A stretch of DNA of 34,510 bases from Anaerofustis stercorihominis (GTDB lineage: Bacteria; Bacillota; Clostridia; Eubacteriales; Anaerofustaceae). Shown here piece after piece: positions 23,407 to 34,425 of this stretch. The DNA lies in contig NZ_SPHL01000007.1 in the NCBI RefSeq assembly GCF_005844425.1, positions 30,107 through 64,616 of the forward strand. The letters are read 5' to 3'. Under the pieces are notes generated by a model, which was not told the origin of the DNA, searched no databases, and saw nothing but the letters and a program-made list of their open reading frames with translations. How positions within the stretch are numbered: the first letter of the stretch is position 1; each line of letters opens with the position of its first letter. Position numbers and translations under genes: made by a program.

Positions 23407-23988
23407 ATGTTAAAAAAAATCTGGTATTTCCTTATTCTATTTTCGGTAATATTTGGAATTTTTACAGGTAAAACAGAAAATATCGCAAATGCATTTTCAA
23501 GTGCAGGACAAGATTGCGTAAAAATATGTTTTTCTCTAATTGGAACAATGTGTTTTTGGAGTGGAATGATGGAAATAATAACAAAAAGCAAATTAACAGA
23601 TAAAATAAATACTGTTTTCAATCCACTTATCAATCTATTATTTAATGACATAAAGAAAGATAAAGAAGCTTCAAATGCCGTTATTTTAAACCTTTCCGCA
23701 AATTTTTTAGGTCTTGGCAATGCTGCCACACCTCTTGGAATAGATGCAATACACAAAATGAATAAACTTAATACAAAAAAAGATACCCTAAGCGATGATA
23801 TGATTATGTTCTTGATTTTAAACACAACATGCCTACAACTTCTCCCAACCTCTATATTTGCTTATAGAATTTCATTTGGCTCAAAAAATCCAACCATAGT
23901 ATTTCTTCCTATTTTGATTTCAACACTATTTACAACTATTATCGGTATTGTTCTTGCGAAATTATTTAAAAGAGGCAGAAAATGTTAA
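23407..23988 (+). CDS. spmA: Spore maturation protein A
   Basis: A 193-aa membrane protein of the nucleoside-recognition (Gate) family, about five spans. The segments CFSLIGTMCFWSGMMEII near 41-58 and NLSANFLGLGNAATPLGIDA near 95-114 are characteristic of SpmA. In Bacillus SpmA and SpmB act in spore-core dehydration; non-sporulating relatives can retain the pair, so it signals lineage more than a present ability to sporulate. AAGGAGG lies 12 bases before the ATG at 23407, a little far but with no better start. It overlaps spmB by 7 bases. Confidence 0.92.
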   Translation: MLKKIWYFLILFSVIFGIFTGKTENIANAFSSAGQDCVKICFSLIGTMCFWSGMMEIITKSKLTDKINTVFNPLINLLFNDIKKDKEASNAVILNLSANFLGLGNAATPLGIDAIHKMNKLNTKKDTLSDDMIMFLILNTTCLQLLPTSIFAYRISFGSKNPTIVFLPILISTLFTTIIGIVLAKLFKRGRKC

Positions 23989-24506
23989 ATTTCATATCTT
24001 CTTTTGTAATTATTTCAATAATTTTAGGTGTTTTAACCTATGGAATGGTAAAAAATATTGATATTTATGCGACATTTGTAATAGGTGCAAAAAAGGGGCT
24101 AAAAACCACTTTAAACATTTTTCCGTTCCTTTTGACATTCATAATAAGCGTAAATATTTTTAAAGAAAGCGGGCTAAGCGATTTTTTAATTTCTATTCTT
24201 TCCCCTATTTGCAATATATTCCATTTTAAAAGTGAGTTACTACCTTTGATGATATTTAGACCAATTTCAGGCTCAGGAGCCAGTGCAATTCTTTGCGATA
24301 TATTTAAAGTATACACTCCCGATTCTTTTATCGGACTTACCGCAAGTATAATGATGGGTTCTACTGAAACAACTTTATATGTTTTAAATGTATATTTGTC
24401 AAATGAAAAAATAATAAATCTAAGATATGCACTTAAAGCATGTCTTCTTGCGGATTTTTTTGGATTTTTAATGGCTTATATTATATCTTTATTGTTTTTT
24501 ACATAA
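23982..24506 (+). CDS. spmB: Spore maturation protein B
   Basis: A 174-aa partner of SpmA, also of the Gate family, with about five spans. The hallmark RPISGSGASAILCDIF lies near 93-108, then GLTASIMMGSTETTLYV near 118-134. The ATG lies within the spmA end (7-base overlap) behind AGAGG, so the two are translationally coupled. No hairpin terminator follows; the next 27 bases lead into the repeat array before the glycosyltransferase gene. Confidence 0.93.
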   Translation: MLNFISSFVIISIILGVLTYGMVKNIDIYATFVIGAKKGLKTTLNIFPFLLTFIISVNIFKESGLSDFLISILSPICNIFHFKSELLPLMIFRPISGSGASAILCDIFKVYTPDSFIGLTASIMMGSTETTLYVLNVYLSNEKIINLRYALKACLLADFFGFLMAYIISLLFFT

Positions 24507-24533
24507 ATATTTTTTTAGTTTTTTTAAAGAAAA

Positions 24534-24571
24534 TTAACAACATATTAACAAAAATTAACATTCTCTTAAGT
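24534..24571 (+). promoter_or_regulatory. Four direct repeats, Pho-box-like response-regulator site
   Basis: TTAACA at 24534, 24545 and 24555 and TTAAGT at 24566 are spaced 11, 10 and 11 bases apart, one DNA turn each. PhoP-type (OmpR-family) regulators bind such TT(A/T)ACA repeats. The array ends 21-26 bases before two possible -10 boxes, TATGAT (24592) and TATATT (24597), with no good -35, as is usual for activated promoters. The start codon is at 24658. Confidence 0.65.
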
Positions 24572-24657
24572 TACGTTTTTAAGGCTTTTTTTATGATATA
24601 TTGTGTTTAAAGAAATTAAAAATTAAATTACATATCATATAAAAAGAGAGGGAAAAA

Positions 24658-25716
24658 ATGAATACATTAATTTTAACAGCTCGCTTCGGAATGGGACATA
24701 TATCCGCAGCAAAGGCAATAGAGGAAGAACTTAAATTAAAAAATAATAATTCCAATGTTTACATTGTTGATGTAGTAGATTATCTTTTCCCATCATGGGC
24801 AAATTTAATTTACTCAGGATTCAATCATCTTACAAGCAAGTTTTCAACAGTATATAACTTTTTTAATAAAACAGCGGGAAATTATAATGAAACAATACCA
24901 TTAAAAAAAGCGCTTGTTAAAAAATTAGATAGATTAATAGAAGAATATAATGCAGATGTAATTATCTCAACAATACCAATTGCATCAAAATATATATCTT
25001 TATATAAAGAAACAAAAAATATAAATATACCTTTATATACATATATAACAGATATATCAGCACATAACGAATGGTTAGGCAAAGGAACAAATTTATATTT
25101 TGTGGGAAGTAAAGAAACTAAAATCGAATTAATTGGAAAAGGTGTTGAAGAAGAAAAAATACTAATTTCCGGTATACCTGTAAAACAATCATTCAAAAAC
25201 CTAAAAATAATTAAAGGAAAAAAACAAAAAGAATTATTAATTATGGGTGGCGGACTTGGATTAATACCTGGAATAGAAGATATTTTAAAAACTTTTAACG
25301 AAAACGACTCTATCAATGTCACATTAATATGCGGAAAAAATAAAGAAATGTTTAATAAGATGAAAGAAAAATTTCCTAATATTAATGTAGTGGGATTTAC
25401 AAATGATGTTCATAAATATATGAATAAAGCTGACCTAATAATAACAAAATCAGGTGGAATAACAACATTTGAAGCAATTCATGCACTTTGTCCTTTATAT
25501 ATAATACATCCTTTCTTAATGCAAGAAGTTGGAAATGCTTTATATATAGAAAAAAATAATATTGGAATGATCAAATGGAAGAAAAAAGAAAACATATCAA
25601 AAGATGTAATAGAGTTAATCAATGATGAAAAAAGATTAAATCAAATGAAAGAAAACATGAGAAGAATAAAAAATGAAACTCAAAACGATTATTTAGAAAC
25701 TATTATATCTGCTTAA
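24658..25716 (+). CDS. hexS: Glycolipid glycosyltransferase (MGDG-synthase/UgtP type), HexS-like
   Basis: A 352-aa GT28-type glycosyltransferase acting on diacylglycerol or glycosyl-diacylglycerol at the inner membrane face. The N-terminal MGDG-synthase domain starts with TARFGMGHISAAKAIEEEL (residues 7-25); the C-terminal sugar-nucleotide domain has LLIMGGGLGL near 193-202, VVGFTNDVHKYMNKADLIITKSGGITTFEAI near 244-274, then HPFLMQEVGNALY. The next genes encode a polysaccharide deacetylase and an LPG-synthase-like flippase, the gene order of hexSDF in C. difficile, where HexS adds the N-acetylhexosamine of the glycolipid HNHDRG. The assignment therefore leans on synteny; a plain UgtP glucosyltransferase is the alternative. 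GAGAGGG precedes the ATG. Confidence 0.75.
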   Translation: MNTLILTARFGMGHISAAKAIEEELKLKNNNSNVYIVDVVDYLFPSWANLIYSGFNHLTSKFSTVYNFFNKTAGNYNETIPLKKALVKKLDRLIEEYNADVIISTIPIASKYISLYKETKNINIPLYTYITDISAHNEWLGKGTNLYFVGSKETKIELIGKGVEEEKILISGIPVKQSFKNLKIIKGKKQKELLIMGGGLGLIPGIEDILKTFNENDSINVTLICGKNKEMFNKMKEKFPNINVVGFTNDVHKYMNKADLIITKSGGITTFEAIHALCPLYIIHPFLMQEVGNALYIEKNNIGMIKWKKKENISKDVIELINDEKRLNQMKENMRRIKNETQNDYLETIISA

Positions 25717-25729
25717 AGGTGAAAGACAT

Positions 25730-26419
25730 ATGAAAATTTTATTTTATATTATATTAATATTTATATCATTAATTATTTTATACGGAATAATTCCAACTTA
25801 TGTTTATAAGATAAAACATAAAATAGAAAAAAAGAATATAACAAATAATGGTAAAAACATATACCTTACATTCGATGACGGCCCAGATCCAAAATATACT
25901 TTGGAACTTCTTGATATATTAAAAGAAAATGACATCAAAGCATCCTTTTTTGTGGTAGGTGAATTTGCAAAAAATAATTCTGACATAATAAAAAGAATGC
26001 AAGAAGAAGGGCATAAAATAGGACTTCATTGGTATGAACATAAAAGCGCACTCATACAACATCCTCTAAAAACCAAAACGAACTTTCAAAAAGGAATAAA
26101 TACCTTAAATAATCTAGGCGTAAAAGACCCAAGTTTCAGACCTCCCTGGGGACAATTCAACTGGGTAATGATATACCTTATGAAGTCCTATAATTTAAAA
26201 CCTTTCCTTTGGGATGTCATGGCAGAAGATTGGCAAAAAAACACGACAAGTGAAATAATAAAAAACAAACTTGAAAAAAGAGTAAAAAACAATGATATTA
26301 TATGTCTCCATGACGGACGCGGCAGAGATGATGCTCCAAAAAGAACAATTGAAGCATTAAAAGAAATTCTTCCAAAATGGAAAAATGAAGGATACATTTT
26401 TAAAACAACCGGAGAATAA
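25730..26419 (+). CDS. hexD: Polysaccharide deacetylase (NodB domain), HexD-like
   Basis: A 229-aa membrane-anchored deacetylase. One N-terminal span (about 3-24) precedes a NodB domain: motif 1 TFDDGPD with Asp 49 and Asp 50, motif 2 HWYEH with His 100 and His 104, motif 3 RPPWG at 137-141 and motif 5 CLHDG with His 194. The metal ligands and catalytic base are present; Trp replaces the usual Ser or Thr after the first histidine of motif 2. In the hexSDF setting it would remove the N-acetyl group from a hexosamine-bearing glycolipid, leaving a free amine. Chitin or peptidoglycan deacetylase is the general alternative. It lies 13 bases after hexS and one base before hexF. Confidence 0.82.
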   Translation: MKILFYIILIFISLIILYGIIPTYVYKIKHKIEKKNITNNGKNIYLTFDDGPDPKYTLELLDILKENDIKASFFVVGEFAKNNSDIIKRMQEEGHKIGLHWYEHKSALIQHPLKTKTNFQKGINTLNNLGVKDPSFRPPWGQFNWVMIYLMKSYNLKPFLWDVMAEDWQKNTTSEIIKNKLEKRVKNNDIICLHDGRGRDDAPKRTIEALKEILPKWKNEGYIFKTTGE

Positions 26420-26420
26420 A

Positions 26421-27467
26421 ATGAAGGATAATAAAATAAAAAATATTTTTAAATCTACAATATTTTTTGTAGTAATGCTTATTCTTACGTCTTATATGTT
26501 GTTTAAAGATTCAAATTTAACATCTATAATTGAGACTATTGAAGACGTAAATACAAACTATATACTACTTGCCATTATGGCGATGTGTGTATTTATAACC
26601 TGTGAAGGAATAAACATACTTAGAAATTTAAATATACTGGGATATAATGTAGGACTTATAAAAGGAATAAAATATGCCCTTGTAGGCTTTTTCTTTAGTT
26701 CAATTACCCCATCAGCATCAGGTGGACAACCTATGCAGGTTTATTTTATGAAAAAAGATAACATAGAAATATCACACAGTATAGTAGCTTTACTTATAGA
26801 ACTTGCAAGTTTTCAAATCAATACTGTAATTATTTCTCTTCTTGGTTTTTTCCTTAATATGAATTTCTTTATGGAAAAAATAGGAAGCATAAAATATCTT
26901 TTATTTATAGGAATTACAATAAACATAATTGCATTTTTATTTATATTATGTGCACTTTTTAATAGAAGATTAATGGAGAAATTATTAAATTTTGCAACAA
27001 AAATTTTAACAAAACTAAAATACAAAAATATTGAAGGATTTAAAGAAAAATCAAAAGAACAACTTGAAGAATACGCAAGCGGTGCAAAATACATAAAAAA
27101 CAACAAAAAAGCACTTATAAAAACTTTAATGATTACATTTATACAACTAACAGCAATGTATTCTGTAACATTCTTTGTATATAAATCTTTTGGACTTTCA
27201 CAGTTTAATTTTATACAAATAATATCAATACAAGCTGTACTTTATTCATCTGTTATGGCTCTTCCATTACCGGGTGGAGTGGGTGCAAGTGAAGGAGGAT
27301 TTTTATCACTATTCAAATACATTTTCCCTCTTACACTTACAAGCCCTGCAATGTTACTTTCAAGAGGGATAAACTTCTACTTATTCGTTCTTGTTTCAGG
27401 ACTGGCAATAATGTTTTTTCAACTTATTTATATTAAAAACTCCAACATGAGCAAGGAAACCGCATAA
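26421..27467 (+). CDS. hexF: LPG-synthase-TM flippase family protein, HexF-like
   Basis: A 348-aa membrane protein of the lysylphosphatidylglycerol synthase transmembrane/UPF0104 family, related to the flippase half of MprF. It has about eight spans; the family blocks SITPSASGGQPMQVYFM near 94-110 and LPLPGGVGASEGGFLSLF near 277-294 are clear. There is no aminoacyl-transferase domain, so it is a flippase-only form. An ATG at 26385 inside hexD is open, but GGAG before the ATG at 26421 is the better start. As third gene after glycosyltransferase and deacetylase it matches HexF, proposed to move the aminoglycolipid to the outer leaflet. A terminator overlaps its stop. Confidence 0.8.
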   Translation: MKDNKIKNIFKSTIFFVVMLILTSYMLFKDSNLTSIIETIEDVNTNYILLAIMAMCVFITCEGINILRNLNILGYNVGLIKGIKYALVGFFFSSITPSASGGQPMQVYFMKKDNIEISHSIVALLIELASFQINTVIISLLGFFLNMNFFMEKIGSIKYLLFIGITINIIAFLFILCALFNRRLMEKLLNFATKILTKLKYKNIEGFKEKSKEQLEEYASGAKYIKNNKKALIKTLMITFIQLTAMYSVTFFVYKSFGLSQFNFIQIISIQAVLYSSVMALPLPGGVGASEGGFLSLFKYIFPLTLTSPAMLLSRGINFYLFVLVSGLAIMFFQLIYIKNSNMSKETA

Positions 27468-27486
27468 GGGTTTCCTTGATTTTTTT
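27452..27486 (+). terminator. Terminator of the hexSDF-like operon
   Basis: A perfect 10-bp stem CAAGGAAACC (27452-27461) / GGTTTCCTTG (27469-27478) followed by a T7 run on the plus strand, overlapping the hexF stop. On the minus strand no T run follows, so it would not be an efficient end for the phage genes arriving from the right. Confidence 0.88.
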
Positions 27487-27487
27487 A

Positions 27488-27859
27488 CTAATTTGACATT
27501 TTTTTTTCTATTTCTTTTATTCTAATCTGTTTTTTTATTGCTTCATTATCAAGAGAATTAATATCTTTATCAAAAGCTATTCCAAGCCTTGAGCAACGCT
27601 CATATTGTTTAACTTGATTATCATATTCAACAAACCACTCATAAATACTATTTAATTCATTAAAAAGTTCTTCTTTGTTTACTTTTTCTTTTATTTTACT
27701 TAAATCTTTAACTAAAATATTATTATCAAGATAATAAGCATAATAGAATTCATCAAAATCTGAAGGAATTTCTCCGTTAAACGCAACACCACCATCTATT
27801 CCTCCAAGTGTAGAAAATCCTACAACATAATTATTATCATCATATTTTATTTCCATCAT
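27488..27859 (-). CDS. Small phage protein at the distal end of the tail operon
   Basis: A 123-aa protein. The N-terminal part (EIKYDDNNYVVGFSTLGGIDGGVAF, then PSDFDEFYYAYYLDNN) looks like the short proteins that follow tail-fibre genes in Firmicute siphophages, where the segment YD.(D/N)(G/N)Y(V/I) recurs. The C-terminal half is a charged coiled helix (KIKEKVNKEELFNELNSIYEWF). GGGGTGA lies before ATGATG, and the first ATG directly follows the TAG of the DUF859 gene. It is the last phage gene, 20 bases from hexF. The role is unknown. Confidence 0.7.
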   Translation of the reverse strand: MMEIKYDDNNYVVGFSTLGGIDGGVAFNGEIPSDFDEFYYAYYLDNNILVKDLSKIKEKVNKEELFNELNSIYEWFVEYDNQVKQYERCSRLGIAFDKDINSLDNEAIKKQIRIKEIEKKMSN

Positions 27860-29893
27860 CTATATCACCCCATAAATTTCTGAAATTACTATATTATTTA
27901 CATAAGCATGTGAACTTGCATTATGACCTGTTGACCTCGCATAAACTACATTTATTATATGACCGCTCCCACTTTCACTTATAGTTGAACCAAAATGGTA
28001 AGTTACGGAAGAAGGTGAATCTGAAGCATACCCACCGATACCTCTTAAGTAAGAACCTTTTCTTATACCTAATATGGCAGTACCATAGTCTTTTAATACT
28101 ATCATATATAATCTATATCTTGTGAGTCCTGTTATTACACCTGTTTTTTGTCCAGAAGTTATACTACCTTTAAATAAAGCTGTTATACTTGTTGTAAGTT
28201 CTTTACTTCCATAAAAAATAGGTTTATTGAATACAAATTTTTTATTTTGATCATCATAATACATTACTGAAACATCTTCTATAGCATCTTTAATACCAAA
28301 ACCCGTATTACTATCCCCATTTCCACCATATAATGCCATATGATGTTTATTTTGTGCAATATCAGCATTATTAAAATGCAAATATCTTACATTTGCAGTT
28401 CTTTTATCACCACCCATATATACATTATTTGATAAATATGTAGTTGCAAGCCCTACATCAAAATTATCTTCAACTTCCGAACTTTTTCCTATTGCAACAC
28501 CTTTTCCACCTGATTTTAAATCAACAGTAACAAATTCAGTCTTTAAAATAAAAGGAACTTCCATAGAAGACGCAAAGTCATTAAAAATAGCTCTAATAAT
28601 AAAAGTTTTATTTGGAGAAAAATCCCCATATTCTTTTGGTATATTAATATTTATTACTGAATTACTGCTATCAACTACAACATTCTTTTGCACTCCTTCA
28701 ACTATACCATTATCTTTATTACTATCTCCTATTGACACCTCACCTTTAAAAAACTCAATATCTTTTTCTTCGTTTGGTGTTTTGGAATATAATATATAAT
28801 TAATTTTATTCTTATTACCAACCGATGCAAAATCAGCATTAAAACTTACAATAAGAGAATTACCACTACTCTCTTCAGCTCTTTTTACATTAAAATTGGA
28901 AATATTTAAATTGCTGTAAGGATATACAGCTATTGTTGAGTTTAAAGCTGTACTTTCATACCCTCTGCTGTCTACAACGCTGGTTAAAATTTTTATTCCT
29001 TCCCCACTACTTGGAAGTGCAATCCCTTTTATATGTGAAGAAGTTGAAGAATAAGCTTTCCCTCCAACATTAACCTTATATGTCTTTATCGTAGAATTAT
29101 TTTTTCCAACAGCCGTTATTAAAGAATCAATAGTACTAACATTTTGAACCAAAAGACCTTCAAGAGTACTATTACCTGTTATCTCATTACTTGAAACGGT
29201 AGGCTTAAATGTATCAGTATTTGGAACTTTTACAGTTAAATTAACATACTTACTTCCTATATTTGTACTACCATTGTATGTAGTACATGTTATTTTCATT
29301 GTTGCCGAAGTAGCCGAAGTAATATAATCTGCCAAAGAAGTATCTAAACTTAAAGATGTGCTGCTTCCAACATTACTTATAGTCTTTGAATAACTTCCCA
29401 TTGCACATACTATTTTATGCGTAAAAGAACTACTCTTTCTATTTGTATAAATTGTAACACTACTTCCTACATTTACTGATGATGCACTAAGTGTAGGAGT
29501 AGAAGCTCTTGGGATAGTCGCAAGTTTATAACTTCCCGATAAACTTCCTGTTCCAAGACTTATACCCGTTGGATGAGATGCACTAACCGATACGGTCTTT
29601 GTTCCATCTGCGTTATGTGCTATCGTTTTTGTTACAGAAAATAATTTATTATAAGTTCCTGTTCCCTTACTTCTAAAATCAAAACTTACGGATTTTGTAT
29701 ATTTAACTCCGTTAATTTTATAAGTAAATGTTTGAGAGTTTAAATTGTAACTTTGAGAGTTAGCGCTTGCTTTATACATTCCAAAAGTAAAAGTAACACT
29801 TGAACTGTTGTTTGTAACACTTTGAGAGTTTGTAGAACAAGTTACATATAAATCATAACTACTTGAAGCATAATTTCCTTTTATTGTTGCCAT
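27860..29893 (-). CDS. Phage minor structural protein (DUF859-like)
   Basis: A 677-aa beta-rich, Ser/Thr-rich siphovirus structural protein. The N-terminal 125 residues carry the DUF859-type repeat pattern (SSSVTFTFGMYKAS, TKTIAHNADGTKTVSVSASH), an Ig-like section follows (about 130-225, starting PRASTPTLSASSVNVGSSVTI), then KSGGKGVAIGKSSEVEDNFDVGL near 455-477, a segment common at the base of phage receptor-binding domains. The last 90 residues form a separate beta domain likely to contact the host surface. The ATG overlaps the upstream stop by one base. DUF859 is named from memory of the pattern. Confidence 0.82.
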   Translation of the reverse strand: MATIKGNYASSSYDLYVTCSTNSQSVTNNSSSVTFTFGMYKASANSQSYNLNSQTFTYKINGVKYTKSVSFDFRSKGTGTYNKLFSVTKTIAHNADGTKTVSVSASHPTGISLGTGSLSGSYKLATIPRASTPTLSASSVNVGSSVTIYTNRKSSSFTHKIVCAMGSYSKTISNVGSSTSLSLDTSLADYITSATSATMKITCTTYNGSTNIGSKYVNLTVKVPNTDTFKPTVSSNEITGNSTLEGLLVQNVSTIDSLITAVGKNNSTIKTYKVNVGGKAYSSTSSHIKGIALPSSGEGIKILTSVVDSRGYESTALNSTIAVYPYSNLNISNFNVKRAEESSGNSLIVSFNADFASVGNKNKINYILYSKTPNEEKDIEFFKGEVSIGDSNKDNGIVEGVQKNVVVDSSNSVININIPKEYGDFSPNKTFIIRAIFNDFASSMEVPFILKTEFVTVDLKSGGKGVAIGKSSEVEDNFDVGLATTYLSNNVYMGGDKRTANVRYLHFNNADIAQNKHHMALYGGNGDSNTGFGIKDAIEDVSVMYYDDQNKKFVFNKPIFYGSKELTTSITALFKGSITSGQKTGVITGLTRYRLYMIVLKDYGTAILGIRKGSYLRGIGGYASDSPSSVTYHFGSTISESGSGHIINVVYARSTGHNASSHAYVNNIVISEIYGVI

Positions 29894-31899
29894 TATTCTT
29901 CTCCTCCTTGTAAATATGTTATTGTGAGATTTCCTTCGCTTCCGTCAAACATGAAATCTCCTATTCTTAAATTTTTATTTATATTTGCCATTGAAGTTTC
30001 AAGCCCCATTGTATTTATCTTAGTTGAAACATTTTCTCCAACCTTAAAATCAATATTTCCGTTTGCTAAATATATACTCGCTCCTGTTTGAGTTTCTTCT
30101 AAAGAATCAGTATTTTCACCATCTAAATTAGTTTCTGTTAAAGAGAAACTTTGAACAACAGGATTATTTTCTTTTACTTCATCGCTTGATTCAACATTTA
30201 TCCATTTTGCATTTATCCCAACAGTACTTATGTAATTTGCAATAAACGAACCTTCATCACTTAAACCAAAGGACCAAATCGGCTCTTCATCGTTGTAATT
30301 ATTTGTCCATCTAAAACCATTCCCCGAAAGTTCATATACAATATTACTTTCTTTTAATGTTTCTTTATTGTGATAATAATAAACAACACTGCCGTCATCA
30401 TATCGTTTAGATGTAGAATAAAGCCCAAGCATTGCTCCTGGTATTTTATTTAAAGCAAGTATGTCTTTTTCTCTTTTTGAAAGCTCTTTTTTAAGTTCTT
30501 CCTTAACATTGCTTATTATGTTAGATTCATGCTTTGTAAGAGGATTTGCTGAAGCATAACTAGCTTTTTGCTCTGTTGTCCCCTTTGCTTCAATTTCAGA
30601 AGAGCCATTCAAATTAAAAGTATGGTGTGTAACAATACTTTCAAACCCATTGCCCATATTATCTGTAAAAACTATTTTTGCAAGAGGCCATAAAAACGGA
30701 AGTGATATCGTTGTAGCTTTAAAAGGTAGATAGTTTATTACTTTCATATTAGAAAGACCATTTATAACCTTGTTTACATATGTTTCATCATATGATATTA
30801 CCTCTTCTTCATCATCTGTAAAATCTAATGAGCCATCTTCACCACCAGAAACATCACCCTCATCTGGTGTATCTTCTTTGTTTTCAAATATTTCAGGTGA
30901 TGTAATAAGCTCATTTCCCTCAATAGTATAAGAAAGAAGAGTATTAACACTTTCATCTCCTTTGTTTTCTTCACCTTCAATCTCACTTGTATCAGATGGT
31001 AAAGTATATTCATTTGTAAGCTTAACTTCTTTTGTTACATTACCGTCTTTACTGTTTACAACAAGTTTATTTAATGTAAGAGATGTGTTTGAGTATTCTG
31101 ATGAATATCTGATATTTGGCGTAATATTAAAAACTTCTGTTGTATTTGGCACAAAGAAATAATCATAGAATTCTAATTTCAAATTCCCCTCTGCATCCAT
31201 ATATGCACAACTTCCTGTTATCTCACAAATCCATTGTAAAATCTGTCTACAGGTTATTTCTTCTCCCTCCGGATAAGAACTTGGGACATAATCAAGATTA
31301 GGTAAATCAAGATTTATAAAATATTCATCAGGTGAAATATCATTTACGCATTTTGAAAAAATAGCATAAAGTATCTGCCTAATGTTCATACCTTTAGGAT
31401 ATATGGAAAAATCAAATACTTTATCAAAAGCCACCAAACCGTCAAGAGCAGTAAGTTCTACGGTTGTTTGATTTTTAACCTGTTCATCTACCATAAATAC
31501 ACCCATTGGAATATATGAAATAAGCCCGTCATCTGTTTTAACTTTTAACCTTACATAAAGTTTTGCACCGTTAAAATCAACATCATCAAAATTTCCTTTG
31601 TGGTTATCCAAAGTCATTTTTAATTCTGCCGCTATGGCACTGCCAATTTCTATGTTATCCCCACTTGCAACATATCTATCAATAGAAAAAGAACCTGCAA
31701 TAATATTTTTTTCTGTTATATTCATTGAAGTTTCTTCATTTTTTACAGTTTCTTCAGTAAGTAATTCTGTATTACCATTTTCGGAAGTATCTATCGGTGG
31801 TAAATTAACTGCCGATGAAAAAAAGACAGAGATATCAACTCCCTGTCTTGTATTTTCCATTACTTTATCAAATGTTTTCCTATCAATTTTATATGACAT
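29893..31899 (-). CDS. Phage tail-tip / minor structural protein
   Basis: A 668-aa protein in the place where siphophages encode the tail-associated baseplate protein. FSIDRYVASGDNIEIGSAIAAEL near 70-92, PMGVFMVDEQVKNQTTVELTALDGL near 130-154 and RQILQWICEITGSCAYMDAEGNL near 218-240 are the gp27-like hub pattern seen in prophage tail proteins. An acidic low-complexity insert lies about 300-370 (for example GDVSGGEDGSLDFTDDEEE), and the C-terminal third (about 460-668) has a coiled segment and beta domain. No peptidase motif was recognised. GAGGAGG for this gene lies within the end of the preceding gene. Confidence 0.78.
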   Translation of the reverse strand: MSYKIDRKTFDKVMENTRQGVDISVFFSSAVNLPPIDTSENGNTELLTEETVKNEETSMNITEKNIIAGSFSIDRYVASGDNIEIGSAIAAELKMTLDNHKGNFDDVDFNGAKLYVRLKVKTDDGLISYIPMGVFMVDEQVKNQTTVELTALDGLVAFDKVFDFSIYPKGMNIRQILYAIFSKCVNDISPDEYFINLDLPNLDYVPSSYPEGEEITCRQILQWICEITGSCAYMDAEGNLKLEFYDYFFVPNTTEVFNITPNIRYSSEYSNTSLTLNKLVVNSKDGNVTKEVKLTNEYTLPSDTSEIEGEENKGDESVNTLLSYTIEGNELITSPEIFENKEDTPDEGDVSGGEDGSLDFTDDEEEVISYDETYVNKVINGLSNMKVINYLPFKATTISLPFLWPLAKIVFTDNMGNGFESIVTHHTFNLNGSSEIEAKGTTEQKASYASANPLTKHESNIISNVKEELKKELSKREKDILALNKIPGAMLGLYSTSKRYDDGSVVYYYHNKETLKESNIVYELSGNGFRWTNNYNDEEPIWSFGLSDEGSFIANYISTVGINAKWINVESSDEVKENNPVVQSFSLTETNLDGENTDSLEETQTGASIYLANGNIDFKVGENVSTKINTMGLETSMANINKNLRIGDFMFDGSEGNLTITYLQGGEE

Positions 31900-31901
31900 C
31901 T

Positions 31902-32435
31902 TTAAACCTCCTCACTTGGAACTTCACCATTATCTTCGTTTTCAACCTCTTCAAAATCTGTATTGGCTTTTCTTTGAGATAGTGTAAGAGAAAAGCCATC
32001 CCAAAATCCAAGTGCACCATTATAAAGAGGCACGCTTGTTTCACCAAGATAAAATTCATCTATTAAATATGCGTTTTTCTTTGGATCAAAATAACATATT
32101 GTTACATATTCATCCGAAAAATTATTAAGAACAATGCTTAAGTCGTTACTGCTCATTGCCCTGTATGAAACCGATAATTCAACATATTCACCAAGCTTCA
32201 TTTTATTATAAGTAGTATCTTCCGTTCTTCCGCTGTCAGAAGATAAAAGCTCTTTTAATGCACAACTGTAAGATGAAGGGCAAACCTGTAAATCAATGTA
32301 TTTTATCATTTTAACGCCTTCTTTATCGTACGTATCAACTATTAAAAAAGGAAGGGGATTTTTTATCTTTTCAAGCCCTTCCTTTATATAATTATTAAAT
32401 TCTTCATATGTTTTTTCAATTATAACTTTTTCCAT
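31902..32435 (-). CDS. Phage distal-tail-like protein (DUF6711-like)
   Basis: A 177-aa tail protein between tape measure and tail tip, the slot of distal tail proteins. After an N-terminal extension of about 40 residues comes IKYIDLQVCPSSYSCALKEL, then LGEYVELSVSYRAMSSNDLSIVL and YVTICYFDPKKNAYLIDEFYLG; this order resembles DUF6711 proteins of Firmicute prophages, where the N-terminal extension is absent. The last 18 residues are strongly acidic. It starts 2 bases after the tape-measure stop and ends 2 bases before the tail-tip gene, so the genes are tightly coupled. Confidence 0.65.
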   Translation of the reverse strand: MEKVIIEKTYEEFNNYIKEGLEKIKNPLPFLIVDTYDKEGVKMIKYIDLQVCPSSYSCALKELLSSDSGRTEDTTYNKMKLGEYVELSVSYRAMSSNDLSIVLNNFSDEYVTICYFDPKKNAYLIDEFYLGETSVPLYNGALGFWDGFSLTLSQRKANTDFEEVENEDNGEVPSEEV

Positions 32436-32437
32436 TT

Positions 32438-34327
32438 TTATACCCCCAATGCAATAATAGTTTTACCGTCTCTTCTGTTTCTTCTTTCGATAGCTGTAAT
32501 AATATCTTGAGATTTCACTCTGCCGTTATTATCAACTATTTGAATTGTCCAATCTCCTCCGACCATATTTGAGCCAAAAGCAGCGCTTACAGCAGAATAT
32601 ACACCTTTTGAAACAGATGCAACAATTTGGTCATTGTTCATGACAGCTGTTTTTCCGTTAAATGAGCCTACAAGTTCAGGTCCTGCCTCTCTTGCTATAA
32701 ACATTTGTCCCGCATCAACAATACCGCCTTTTGCAAGTCTTGGTAAAGAAACTCTTGCTATTACGGGAATTTCTACCCCAGGTATTTTATTTATTAATCT
32801 GATTGCTCCATTTATGGCACCGATAAACCCATTAATAATACCGCTTGCAAAACTTATAACTGCATTAACCACAGACTTAAAAGCTCCTGATATTCCATTA
32901 CCTATTGCAGTACCAATTTTACTGAACATGCTTTTTATATTGCTCCAGATATTGCTAAAAAACTTTACACATCCGGAAAATGCGTTTTTAATTCCATTCC
33001 AAGCACTTTTAAATATGCTTCCAAACCATGAGCCGACTTTTGAAAATACATTCTTTATTCCACTCCATACGTTCGAGAAAAACTCACCAACAAAGGAAAA
33101 TGCATTTTTAATTGCTTCCCAGCCTGTTGAGAATACATTTCCAAAGAATTCAGCCACAACAGAGAAAATACCGCAGATAACTTCCCATGCCATGGAGAAG
33201 ATTGAACCTACAAACTCAAGCCCAGCAGAGAATATACCGCATATACCTTCCCATAATGAACTTAAACCTTTTTGAATCATTTCTCCGTTACCTGTAAATA
33301 ATCCAACAATTATATCAAAAACACCTTTTACAATTTCAACGGCTCCTGAAATTAATTCTGAAATAAAATCAAAAAATCCTGTTACATATTCTGTTATCAT
33401 TGGTCCATATTCTTCCCATAATTCAATTAATACATCAAAAAGTCCAACAATAATTTCAGATATTAATCCAACTGCTTCTGTAATAGACTCTATTAGCCCT
33501 TCAATTCCGGAACAAACCCCCTCTACAAATGGAGTCATTTCGTCTCCTTCTCCACCAAATATAGCTTCTTTAAACTCCGTAAAGGCTAATATTGCAGGCT
33601 CAAAAGCATCTTTAACACCATTCCATGCCGTTGTAATTTTATCTCTAAACTCTTCATTAGACTTCATTAGTTCTTTAAATATAGCAATAAGAGAAACAAC
33701 TGTTGCAACAATCAAGGCAATAGCAGCAACTATCCCTCCTGACAAAAGAGAACCCGCCATGGAACCAATCTTACTTGCATTTGCTGTAAGTGCATTTCCT
33801 GCTGCGCTCATTTTATCTGATACTAAATTTGGAAGCCCCTTTATTCCGTCTTTAATGCTTTTAAAACTAACATTAGATATTGATTCTTTAAATCCTTTTA
33901 TGTTTTCTACAGAATCATTTCCAAAATCTTTAATTTTTTCTTTAAACGACAAAAAATTATTTTTCCCTTTACTTACAAAATCCGAAAATGATACTTTACT
34001 GTTATTTAATTCTCCTTTAAAATCTTTTAAATATTTTCCGGCTTTAATTGTTCCGTCTGATACTGCATTTGAAAAAGATTTTATAGCCTCACTCTTATTT
34101 ACACTTGAATATAAATCTTTTATTGTATTTTTTATACTTTTAACCGCATTAATACCTTCTGATACAGAAGTTACAATGTCTCCCATACCTCCAATAAAAG
34201 ATCCAAAACTTACCAAACAATTATCCACGGCTCCCGTTAATACTCCCACATTATTTTGAAGCTGTGTTATATTATCTGCCAATGTTGTAATATTTTTTGT
34301 CATATTTCCAATATTTTTATTTGCCAT
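32438..34327 (-). CDS. Phage tail tape measure protein
   Basis: A 629-aa tape measure protein, which sets tail length. Residues 1-190 are helical and polar, a hydrophobic span lies at about 198-217, and a Trp-centred repeat region spans 359-480, with Trp at 359, 381, 403, 421, 443 and 461 (steps 22, 22, 18, 22, 18) and units like WSGIKNVFSKVGSWF. The C-terminal AREAGPELVG and TAVMNNDQIVASVS are standard tape-measure endings. An upstream in-frame ATG at 34351 is rejected because AAAGGAG lies directly before the ATG at 34327. At 629 aa it predicts a short tail, near 95 nm if the usual 1.5 angstrom per residue holds. Confidence 0.93.
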   Translation of the reverse strand: MANKNIGNMTKNITTLADNITQLQNNVGVLTGAVDNCLVSFGSFIGGMGDIVTSVSEGINAVKSIKNTIKDLYSSVNKSEAIKSFSNAVSDGTIKAGKYLKDFKGELNNSKVSFSDFVSKGKNNFLSFKEKIKDFGNDSVENIKGFKESISNVSFKSIKDGIKGLPNLVSDKMSAAGNALTANASKIGSMAGSLLSGGIVAAIALIVATVVSLIAIFKELMKSNEEFRDKITTAWNGVKDAFEPAILAFTEFKEAIFGGEGDEMTPFVEGVCSGIEGLIESITEAVGLISEIIVGLFDVLIELWEEYGPMITEYVTGFFDFISELISGAVEIVKGVFDIIVGLFTGNGEMIQKGLSSLWEGICGIFSAGLEFVGSIFSMAWEVICGIFSVVAEFFGNVFSTGWEAIKNAFSFVGEFFSNVWSGIKNVFSKVGSWFGSIFKSAWNGIKNAFSGCVKFFSNIWSNIKSMFSKIGTAIGNGISGAFKSVVNAVISFASGIINGFIGAINGAIRLINKIPGVEIPVIARVSLPRLAKGGIVDAGQMFIAREAGPELVGSFNGKTAVMNNDQIVASVSKGVYSAVSAAFGSNMVGGDWTIQIVDNNGRVKSQDIITAIERRNRRDGKTIIALGV

Positions 34328-34425
34328 TTTTTTCTCCTTTCTATTTTTCATTTTGGCTAAAAAAATAATTATTTAATTTATTCTTTCAATTCAACCACCC
34401 CCTTTCAAAATTCGTAATAAAAAAG

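Follow-up and report, generated by a model that had tools for sequence, protein, structure and literature searches.

The closest described counterpart of the operon analysed here is hexSDF of Clostridioides difficile, with its two-component system (TCS) hexRK (PMC10128005, PMC11898633). In C. difficile the three genes direct the synthesis of a positively charged membrane lipid. Its production by the homologous proteins is described in PMC10128005, and it has been described as found only in that species (PMC11898633). The Pseudomonas gpgSDF operon, which makes glucosaminyl-phosphatidylglycerol (PG), follows the same three-step logic of glycosyltransferase, deacetylase and flippase; GpgS is reported to be a GT4 enzyme and GpgD to belong to COG3233, and gpgSDF has been called analogous to hexSDF (PMC12713373). 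We analysed a 34,510-nucleotide stretch of Anaerofustis stercorihominis DNA (contig NZ_SPHL01000007.1, positions 30,107 to 64,616, forward strand; hereafter the window), which holds a three-gene operon of this kind behind a phased array of TTAA repeats. It shares with C. difficile hexSDF the S-D-F order, the three protein families and TTAA in the promoter. It differs in having no adjoining hexRK and in its more numerous and more regular TTAA subsites. The best explanation of the whole, which we consider probable, is a hexSDF-type amino-glycolipid operon under a response regulator (RR) of a HexR/VanR-like type, predicted to bind the TTAA subsites.

The hexS-like gene (24658..25716; all operon features lie on the plus strand) encodes a 352-amino-acid glycosyltransferase of the MGDG synthase family. 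We observed MGDG_synth (PF06925, 1.7e-25) and Glyco_tran_28_C (PF04101, 2.6e-11) domains in the protein, and a phmmer match to the diacylglycerol beta-glucosyltransferase 9wde (1.2e-30). The hexD-like gene (25730..26419) encodes a 229-amino-acid NodB-family deacetylase, supported by Polysacc_deac_1 (PF01522, 2.1e-26) and by alignments. Its N-terminus is hydrophobic, and the alignments showed the stretches TFDDGPD, HWYEH, RPPWG, AEDW and LHD, which we take to be the motifs expected of a NodB-type enzyme. The hexF-like open reading frame (ORF) is listed from 26385 (26385-27467); its likeliest start is the ATG at 26421, which has GGAGAA ahead of it. The resulting 348-amino-acid protein (26421..27467) matches the membrane (flippase) domain of MprF (LPG_synthase_TM, PF03706, 2.2e-41) and had no phmmer match in the PDB at E <= 0.01. 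HexF shares this domain with MprF, a lysyl-PG synthase/flippase, whereas hexSDF has a glycosyltransferase in place of the aminoacyl transferase. The window protein differs from the gpgSDF flippase, since it scored 35.5 bits with the NCBIfam model for the glucosaminyl-PG flippase, below the cut-off of 320.

An intrinsic terminator (27452..27486; 10-bp stem, loop of 7, T run) overlaps the hexF stop. Its stem (27452-27478) explains why an earlier note on this DNA had ended the feature at 27478. The three proteins were 43% (HexS), 51% (HexD) and 40% (HexF) identical to those of the C. difficile locus L124, over 352, 224 and 346 residues. ORFs, Pfam domains and alignments place the MGDG-synthase-type glycosyltransferase, the NodB-family deacetylase and the MprF-type flippase in one operon in the order S-D-F. 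The earlier note had proposed a hexSDF-like operon, and both the domains and the alignment of the three proteins to HexS, HexD and HexF bear this out. Judged by its sequence, the three-gene unit is a hexSDF-type operon that differs in apparent acceptor supply and regulation.

Upstream of hexS lies the phased TTAA array (24524..24571, plus strand), a predicted operator for an OmpR-family RR, recognised by direct reading and by in-register conservation in orthologous promoters. The subsites are TTAAAG at 24524, TTAACA at 24534-24539, 24545-24550 and 24555-24560, and TTAAGT at 24566-24571, in steps of 10, 11, 10 and 11 bp. Direct reading of the positions confirmed the three TTAACA and one TTAAGT copies reported before at spacings of 11, 10 and 11; the in-phase TTAAAG extends the array beyond those four. 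Subsites in the window lie 58, 47, 37 and 26 bp upstream of the -10 hexamer TATGAT (24592..24597, plus strand; direct reading and promoter scan), and the same hexamer in the same register occurs in the same-genus genome G002 and in Emergencia (L069). TTAAGG at 24579..24584 (plus strand, direct reading) is a possible last subsite, at a 13-bp step, slightly out of phase and 2 bp off the usual 15-bp position. The promoter scan found no -35-like hexamer paired with the TATGAT at 24592. Here and below, G000 is the A. stercorihominis genome (the own genome), G001 and G002 are same-genus genomes, L numbers are loci and C numbers are contigs of the own genome. The strict three-copy repeat pattern occurred once in the 2.03-Mb own genome. 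A looser pattern of four TTAA occurred at four places, compared to 0 or 1 in each of eight simulated genomes, with a background model trained on 168 kb of sequence that includes those four places. The array, which we consider the most telling element of the locus, is not a chance feature.

We assessed conservation of the array in the 160 bases preceding hexS. Named genomes were scanned with eight aligned HexS relatives; this gave 314 relatives, and the loci of the best 80 together with the window and G002 provided 82 promoters, or 64 after 18 near-copies were dropped. A motif rule fixed some of the hexS starts, and a few are visibly off (e.g. L098, L105, L106, L110, L114); these were kept and add only noise. 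TTAA pairs at distances of 10, 11, 21, 22 and 32 bp occurred in 16, 27, 12, 25 and 18 cases, compared to 3-4 in dinucleotide shuffles (27 vs 3.4 at 11 bp, 25 vs 3.2 at 22 bp, 18 vs 3.0 at 32 bp). Chains of at least three TTAA were present in 8/64 hexS promoters vs 1/236 control promoters from the same loci, and the controls showed no distance peak. Upstream of 86 candidate -10 hexamers, TTAA peaked at 15, 26, 37-38, 47-48 and 58-60 bp. Register was counted in the 51 promoters with a -10-like hexamer, the 13/64 without one being set aside. At least two in-register subsites were found in 26/51 and one in 7/51; with the register shifted by 3-6 bp, 0-4 of the 51 had at least two. The fifth base of in-register TTAA was G in 36/72 and A in 4/72 cases (promoters with at least two subsites), vs G in 14/64 and A in 29/64 for out-of-register TTAA in all 51 promoters. 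This preference for G and avoidance of A argues for recognition by a protein. The array resembles the CiaR box of streptococci, presumably TTTAAG-N5-TTTAAG, in being a TTAAG-type direct repeat with an 11-bp period; that box has two repeats and belongs to other organisms.

The register was held across species while the letters varied. In Emergencia (L069), the hexS promoter carries subsites 15, 26, 37, 47 and 59 bp from its TATGAT. TTAAGA was the commonest form across species at the 15 and 47-49 positions, and the 26 and 37 positions were mixed. The G002 hexS promoter reads TTAAGA/TTAAAT/TTAAAT and does not keep the C of TTAACA. A search of the G002 locus (L025) for the complete spaced pattern, allowing up to 3 mismatches, gave no match; the letters differ there although the register holds. 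The promoter site is common to hexS of hexRK-encoding genomes: counted from a -10-like hexamer, C. difficile L124 has TTAA at 38, 48 and 60 bp, and L142, whose locus contains HexR-like and HexK-like ORFs, has by eye related subsites at 47, 37, 26 and 15, with TTAA in two of the four. Absence of the array from orthologous operons would have spoken against the proposal of the earlier note; TTAA recurs in register in the orthologous promoters. A pattern of three TTAA plus a -10 hexamer gave 4, 2 and 1 matches in G000, G001 and G002 vs 2, 1 and 1 for a reversed control, which is too weak to use. The same pattern gave 1, 2 and 1 matches in three Emergencia-type genomes vs 0 for the reversed control, and the pattern of four TTAA occurred at two places in the Emergencia genome (G067), hexS and one other.

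In several genomes, hexSDF has a neighbouring gene for an RR of a HexR/VanR-like clade. Twenty-two loci carried a TCS-like ORF; 15 hexSDF-neighbouring RRs, with the other 7 set aside, were compared to the own RRs, drawn from a genome with 11 OmpR-type regulators. The RRs on contigs C33 and C21 were the two best own RRs by score for 13 of these 15, with C33 first (40.6-54.5% identity). A tree of 25 regulators placed the own C33 and C21 RRs in one branch with the hexSDF neighbours of C. difficile, Hungatella, Emergencia, Terrisporobacter and similar genomes (14 rows, support 98/94). This branch holds 12 of the 13 neighbours (L140 is not on the tree), and PhoP and the C66 RR fall outside it. HexR, the operon-encoded RR of Emergencia and the C33 RR all had VanR models as their top NCBIfam score, each below the cut-offs; for C33, the VanR (ABDEGLN type) model was the best of all at 273.7 bits (cut-off 350). 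The C33 promoter has TTAA at 49, 38 and 15 in the own genome and at 48, 37 and 15 in G001 and G002, in register in 3/3 species. The choice of C33 rested on how its protein is related and not on the motif. With the same script, seven further promoters of own RRs gave 0 or 1 in-register TTAA (C66b left out; PhoP represented by the pst promoter). The ortholog table leaves out the RR loci L014, L187 and L192, which had no ORF by the rule used.

The four places with four TTAA in the own genome precede hexS, a SapRS-like TCS (C66), a VanG-type D-Ala-D-Ser ligase (498.6 bits, NCBIfam cut-off 495) and, by eye, ftsH. The array stood before the VanRS-like TCS, the SapRS-like TCS and, less completely, the VanG operon in 3/3 genus genomes each. 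In-register TTAA before vanG numbered 3, 2 and 2 in the three genomes, and by eye G001 and G002 add TTCAAG at the 26 position. The ftsH-like promoter (by eye; L212, bases before 3786; own genome) has TTAA at 15, 26, 37 and 47 from TATGAT. Across 103 genus upstream regions, which include some chosen for their arrays, at least three in-register TTAA occurred in six: two hexS, the VanRS-like TCS, vanG, ftsH and one further promoter. The genus VanG operon and VanRS-like TCS carry TTAA in the same register. Their known counterparts are the VanG D-Ala-D-Ser operon and VanRS, for which PMC11326576 describes the C. difficile case. The biochemistry differs from that of hexSDF. No vanRS was recognised by eye within 8 kb at the vanG loci of the three genus genomes. 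We also observed that the VanG-type ligase is followed by VanXY-like and membrane acyltransferase genes (by eye; L209 2688-5128, L210 3577-7500, L211 648-3479), with a racemase-like gene next in L210 (by eye). In L033 (2213-6822), a VanRS-like pair lies divergent beside an FtsE/FtsX-like ATP-binding cassette pair (by eye). We infer that the array-bearing set is a regulon for defence of the cell envelope and not a response to phosphate starvation. The VanRS-like pair on C33 is the first candidate regulator of the operon, because its own promoter has the same array and the array also precedes the VanG ligase operon.

The earlier note had taken the repeats to be the target of a HexR- or PhoP-like regulator. 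The HexR-like half is plausible, given the regulator clade and the C33 array, and the array fits the HexR/VanR-like clade better than PhoP. Contig C11 does carry a phosphate system, with pstS, pstC, pstB and phoU above cut-offs (pstA named by position only) and then, each short of its cut-off, a PhoB-like RR and a PhoR-like kinase, and the three TTAACA subsites resemble what we take to be the Bacillus PhoP box. The pst promoters of G000, G001 and G002 contain 4, 3 and 4 copies of TTTAC and no in-register TTAA, which speaks against PhoP. The orthologous hexS promoters do not keep the C of TTAACA, and PhoP, where it was among the four best own matches of the hexSDF-neighbouring RRs, was 31-41% identical and outside their clade. 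The array was absent from 3/3 genus pst promoters, and a PhoP-driven phosphate-starvation lipid swap, which the earlier note raised for the case that PhoP binds, is very unlikely. The suggestion that the repeats might also precede pst/pho genes or a hexRK locus failed for pst/pho; the VanRS-like TCS, the SapRS-like TCS and vanG do carry the array. A loose PhoP-box search (TTWAYA x3) gave 7 matches in the own genome and 7 for the reversed pattern, and carries no signal. Our literature search found no report linking PhoP, TTAACA and direct repeats. An equally improbable reading is that the phased TTAA is intrinsic curvature or a UP-element-like feature serving no specific regulator. The array is AT-rich, helically phased and close to the -10, as such a feature would be, yet in-register TTAA favour G and avoid A at the fifth base relative to the out-of-register TTAA of hexS promoters, the periodicity is lacking in other promoters of these loci, and by eye the array is also conspicuous in promoters richer in GC, L099 and L101 among them.

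Control by the SapRS/BceRS-like system on C66 (a 338-aa kinase with a short sensor), sensing peptide antibiotics, deserves more weight, though we consider it rather unlikely. In its promoter, four TTAA lie at 49/38/27/16 in G000 and four, in register, at 48/37/26/15 in both G001 and G002; the kinase scored 225.6 bits with the SapS model (cut-off 550). Two Evtepia RRs adjoining hexSDF belong to the C66 clade and have the C66 SapR-like RR as best own match (36.9 and 38.4%). The C66 RR nevertheless lies outside the branch of hexSDF-encoded RRs of C. difficile, Emergencia and Terrisporobacter, the upstream regions of four Evtepia-type RRs showed no such array (two starts uncertain), and G001 keeps the C66 system and its array without hexS at E <= 1e-20. 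Several observations weigh against HexR/VanR-like control. In-register TTAA was absent from 18/51 promoters with a -10-like hexamer. As the earlier note stated, no hexRK genes lie in the window, and neither a TCS nor a HexR ortholog adjoins the operon. The C33 RR, the nearest own RR to HexR, is only 45% identical to it, is encoded on another contig and falls outside the C. difficile-type HexR branch of the tree. In Emergencia, the promoter of the C33 ortholog has TTAAAA and TTAAGA at a distance of 11 bp, and by eye their register is not clear. One of the six array promoters (L212 128-1441, minus strand) has no evident link to the others. The vanG, sapRS and ftsH arrays were found by pattern search; they agree with this reading but neither test it independently nor prove it. 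To these we add the perfect four-subsite array of the C66 system, which could itself be the regulator, and the TTAACA letters of the window, which would presumably also fit a Bacillus-type PhoP box. With these points weighed, HexR/VanR-like control is the best reading, and we hold it to be somewhat probable.

Under HexR/VanR-like control, a phosphorylated OmpR-family RR, most likely of that clade, would switch the operon on. The four to five TTAA subsites that it would bind follow one another at each turn of the DNA near RNA polymerase, the last of them approximately at the place of a -35 box; this architecture is read from the DNA, and binding is predicted. By analogy with C. difficile, HexS would add an N-acetylhexosamine to a lipid acceptor at the inner membrane face, HexD would remove the acetyl group and HexF would flip the amino-glycolipid outward, making the surface less negative. 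In the published work on C. difficile, the flipping step and the side of HexD action are themselves unproven. It is most unlikely that the operon acts on a cell-wall or capsule polysaccharide instead of a lipid. The models nearest to the deacetylase are of the PdaB/PdaA/NodB/PgdA type, as such a role might suggest, and it scores below the cut-off of each. HexS, however, belongs to the diacylglycerol glycosyltransferase family and HexF to the LPG-synthase membrane domain family, and the product of the C. difficile homologues is a lipid (PMC10128005).

The acceptor may differ from that of C. difficile. HexSDF expressed in Bacillus subtilis without ugtP made its lipid only when ugtA was co-expressed (PMC11898633). 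PF06925 gave a single match each in the own genome (HexS), G002 and Emergencia and none in G001, compared to four in the L124 genome, of which two are adjacent pieces. HexS was the only PF06925 protein found in the own genome, where family-2 glycosyltransferases were not searched. Its three family-4 glycosyltransferases other than HexS appear by eye to be two surface-polysaccharide enzymes and a glycogen synthase. Because a second PF06925 protein was not found, the C. difficile product, aminohexosyl-hexosyl-diradylglycerol, cannot be assumed. The acceptor that UgtA makes in C. difficile may be lacking here, HexS may use something other than monohexosyl-diradylglycerol, and the lipid formed may not be the C. 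difficile one. With no UgtA-type protein found, diacylglycerol or phosphatidylglycerol may be glycosylated directly by HexS. More tentatively, one VanR-like TCS of this genus acting through one four-subsite TTAAGA-type operator might switch on vancomycin-type wall remodelling (VanG) and HexSDF together, with a UgtA-free HexS making a new amine-bearing lipid, aminohexosyl-diacylglycerol or aminohexosyl-PG; we regard this combination as possible but doubtful.

S, D and F were separate ORFs in 63/80 named loci, some of which are cut by contig ends; 9 had S and F only, 5 S and D only and 3 S only. Two further loci carry S, D and F with a fusion. L102 (3600-5264), one of the nine S and F loci, encodes a 554-aa HexS-HexD fusion, and L112 (4933-7056), one of the five S and D loci, a 707-aa HexF-HexS fusion with the flippase domain before the glycosyltransferase, which mimics the flippase-synthase layout of MprF. 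These fusions support joint action of the proteins. In L098, L105, L106, L111, L113, L116, L121 and L131, hexS and hexF are present but no hexD was recognised; the product there may keep the acetyl group or contain another sugar. Two of the 80 loci are titled Clostridioides difficile (L124, L128). L124 has a glyA-like ORF (by eye), hexS, hexD, hexF, an RR and a kinase, the order of the published C. difficile layout (PMC10128005). In L128 (9117-10726), other ORFs, one of them TnpB-type and transposon-like by eye, take the place that hexRK has after hexF in L124.

Among these 80 named loci, the best of 314 relatives, the nearest HexS was from Emergencia timonensis (53%). Within the own family, a HexS match at E <= 1e-20 was present in 3/13 genomes, own included, and that of G006 was only 27% identical with no D or F match beside it. 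Within the own order, 11/67 genomes, own included, had a match at E <= 1e-40. The same-genus G002 has a syntenic hexSDF (70/61/59% identity), and G001 has no hexS at E <= 1e-20. HexS-like matches of genus g15 had no hexD or hexF neighbours, and a HexS relative in L047 (G048:C10:76240-77235) contains one in-frame TAG. Directly upstream of the operon in the window lie two ‘Gate’ nucleoside-recognition membrane proteins (23407-24506); the pair also precedes hexSDF in G002 (L028) and had no match in the 80 named loci. Phage-type genes on the minus strand (27488-34351) start right after the hexF terminator and converge on the operon. The two that were scanned are a DUF2977 gene (27488-27859) and a gene for a DUF859 siphovirus protein (27860-29893).

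In the text of PMC10128005, the sole occurrence of ‘binding site’ is in the title of a reference. The shared promoter array provides a concrete predicted operator for HexR-type regulators. The hexSDF operon occurs in many Clostridia-type genomes, in contrast to the description of its lipid as confined to C. difficile. Two questions follow for direct test: which regulator and signal would govern this lipid defence, and which acceptor HexS may use in genomes where a search finds no UgtA-type protein.

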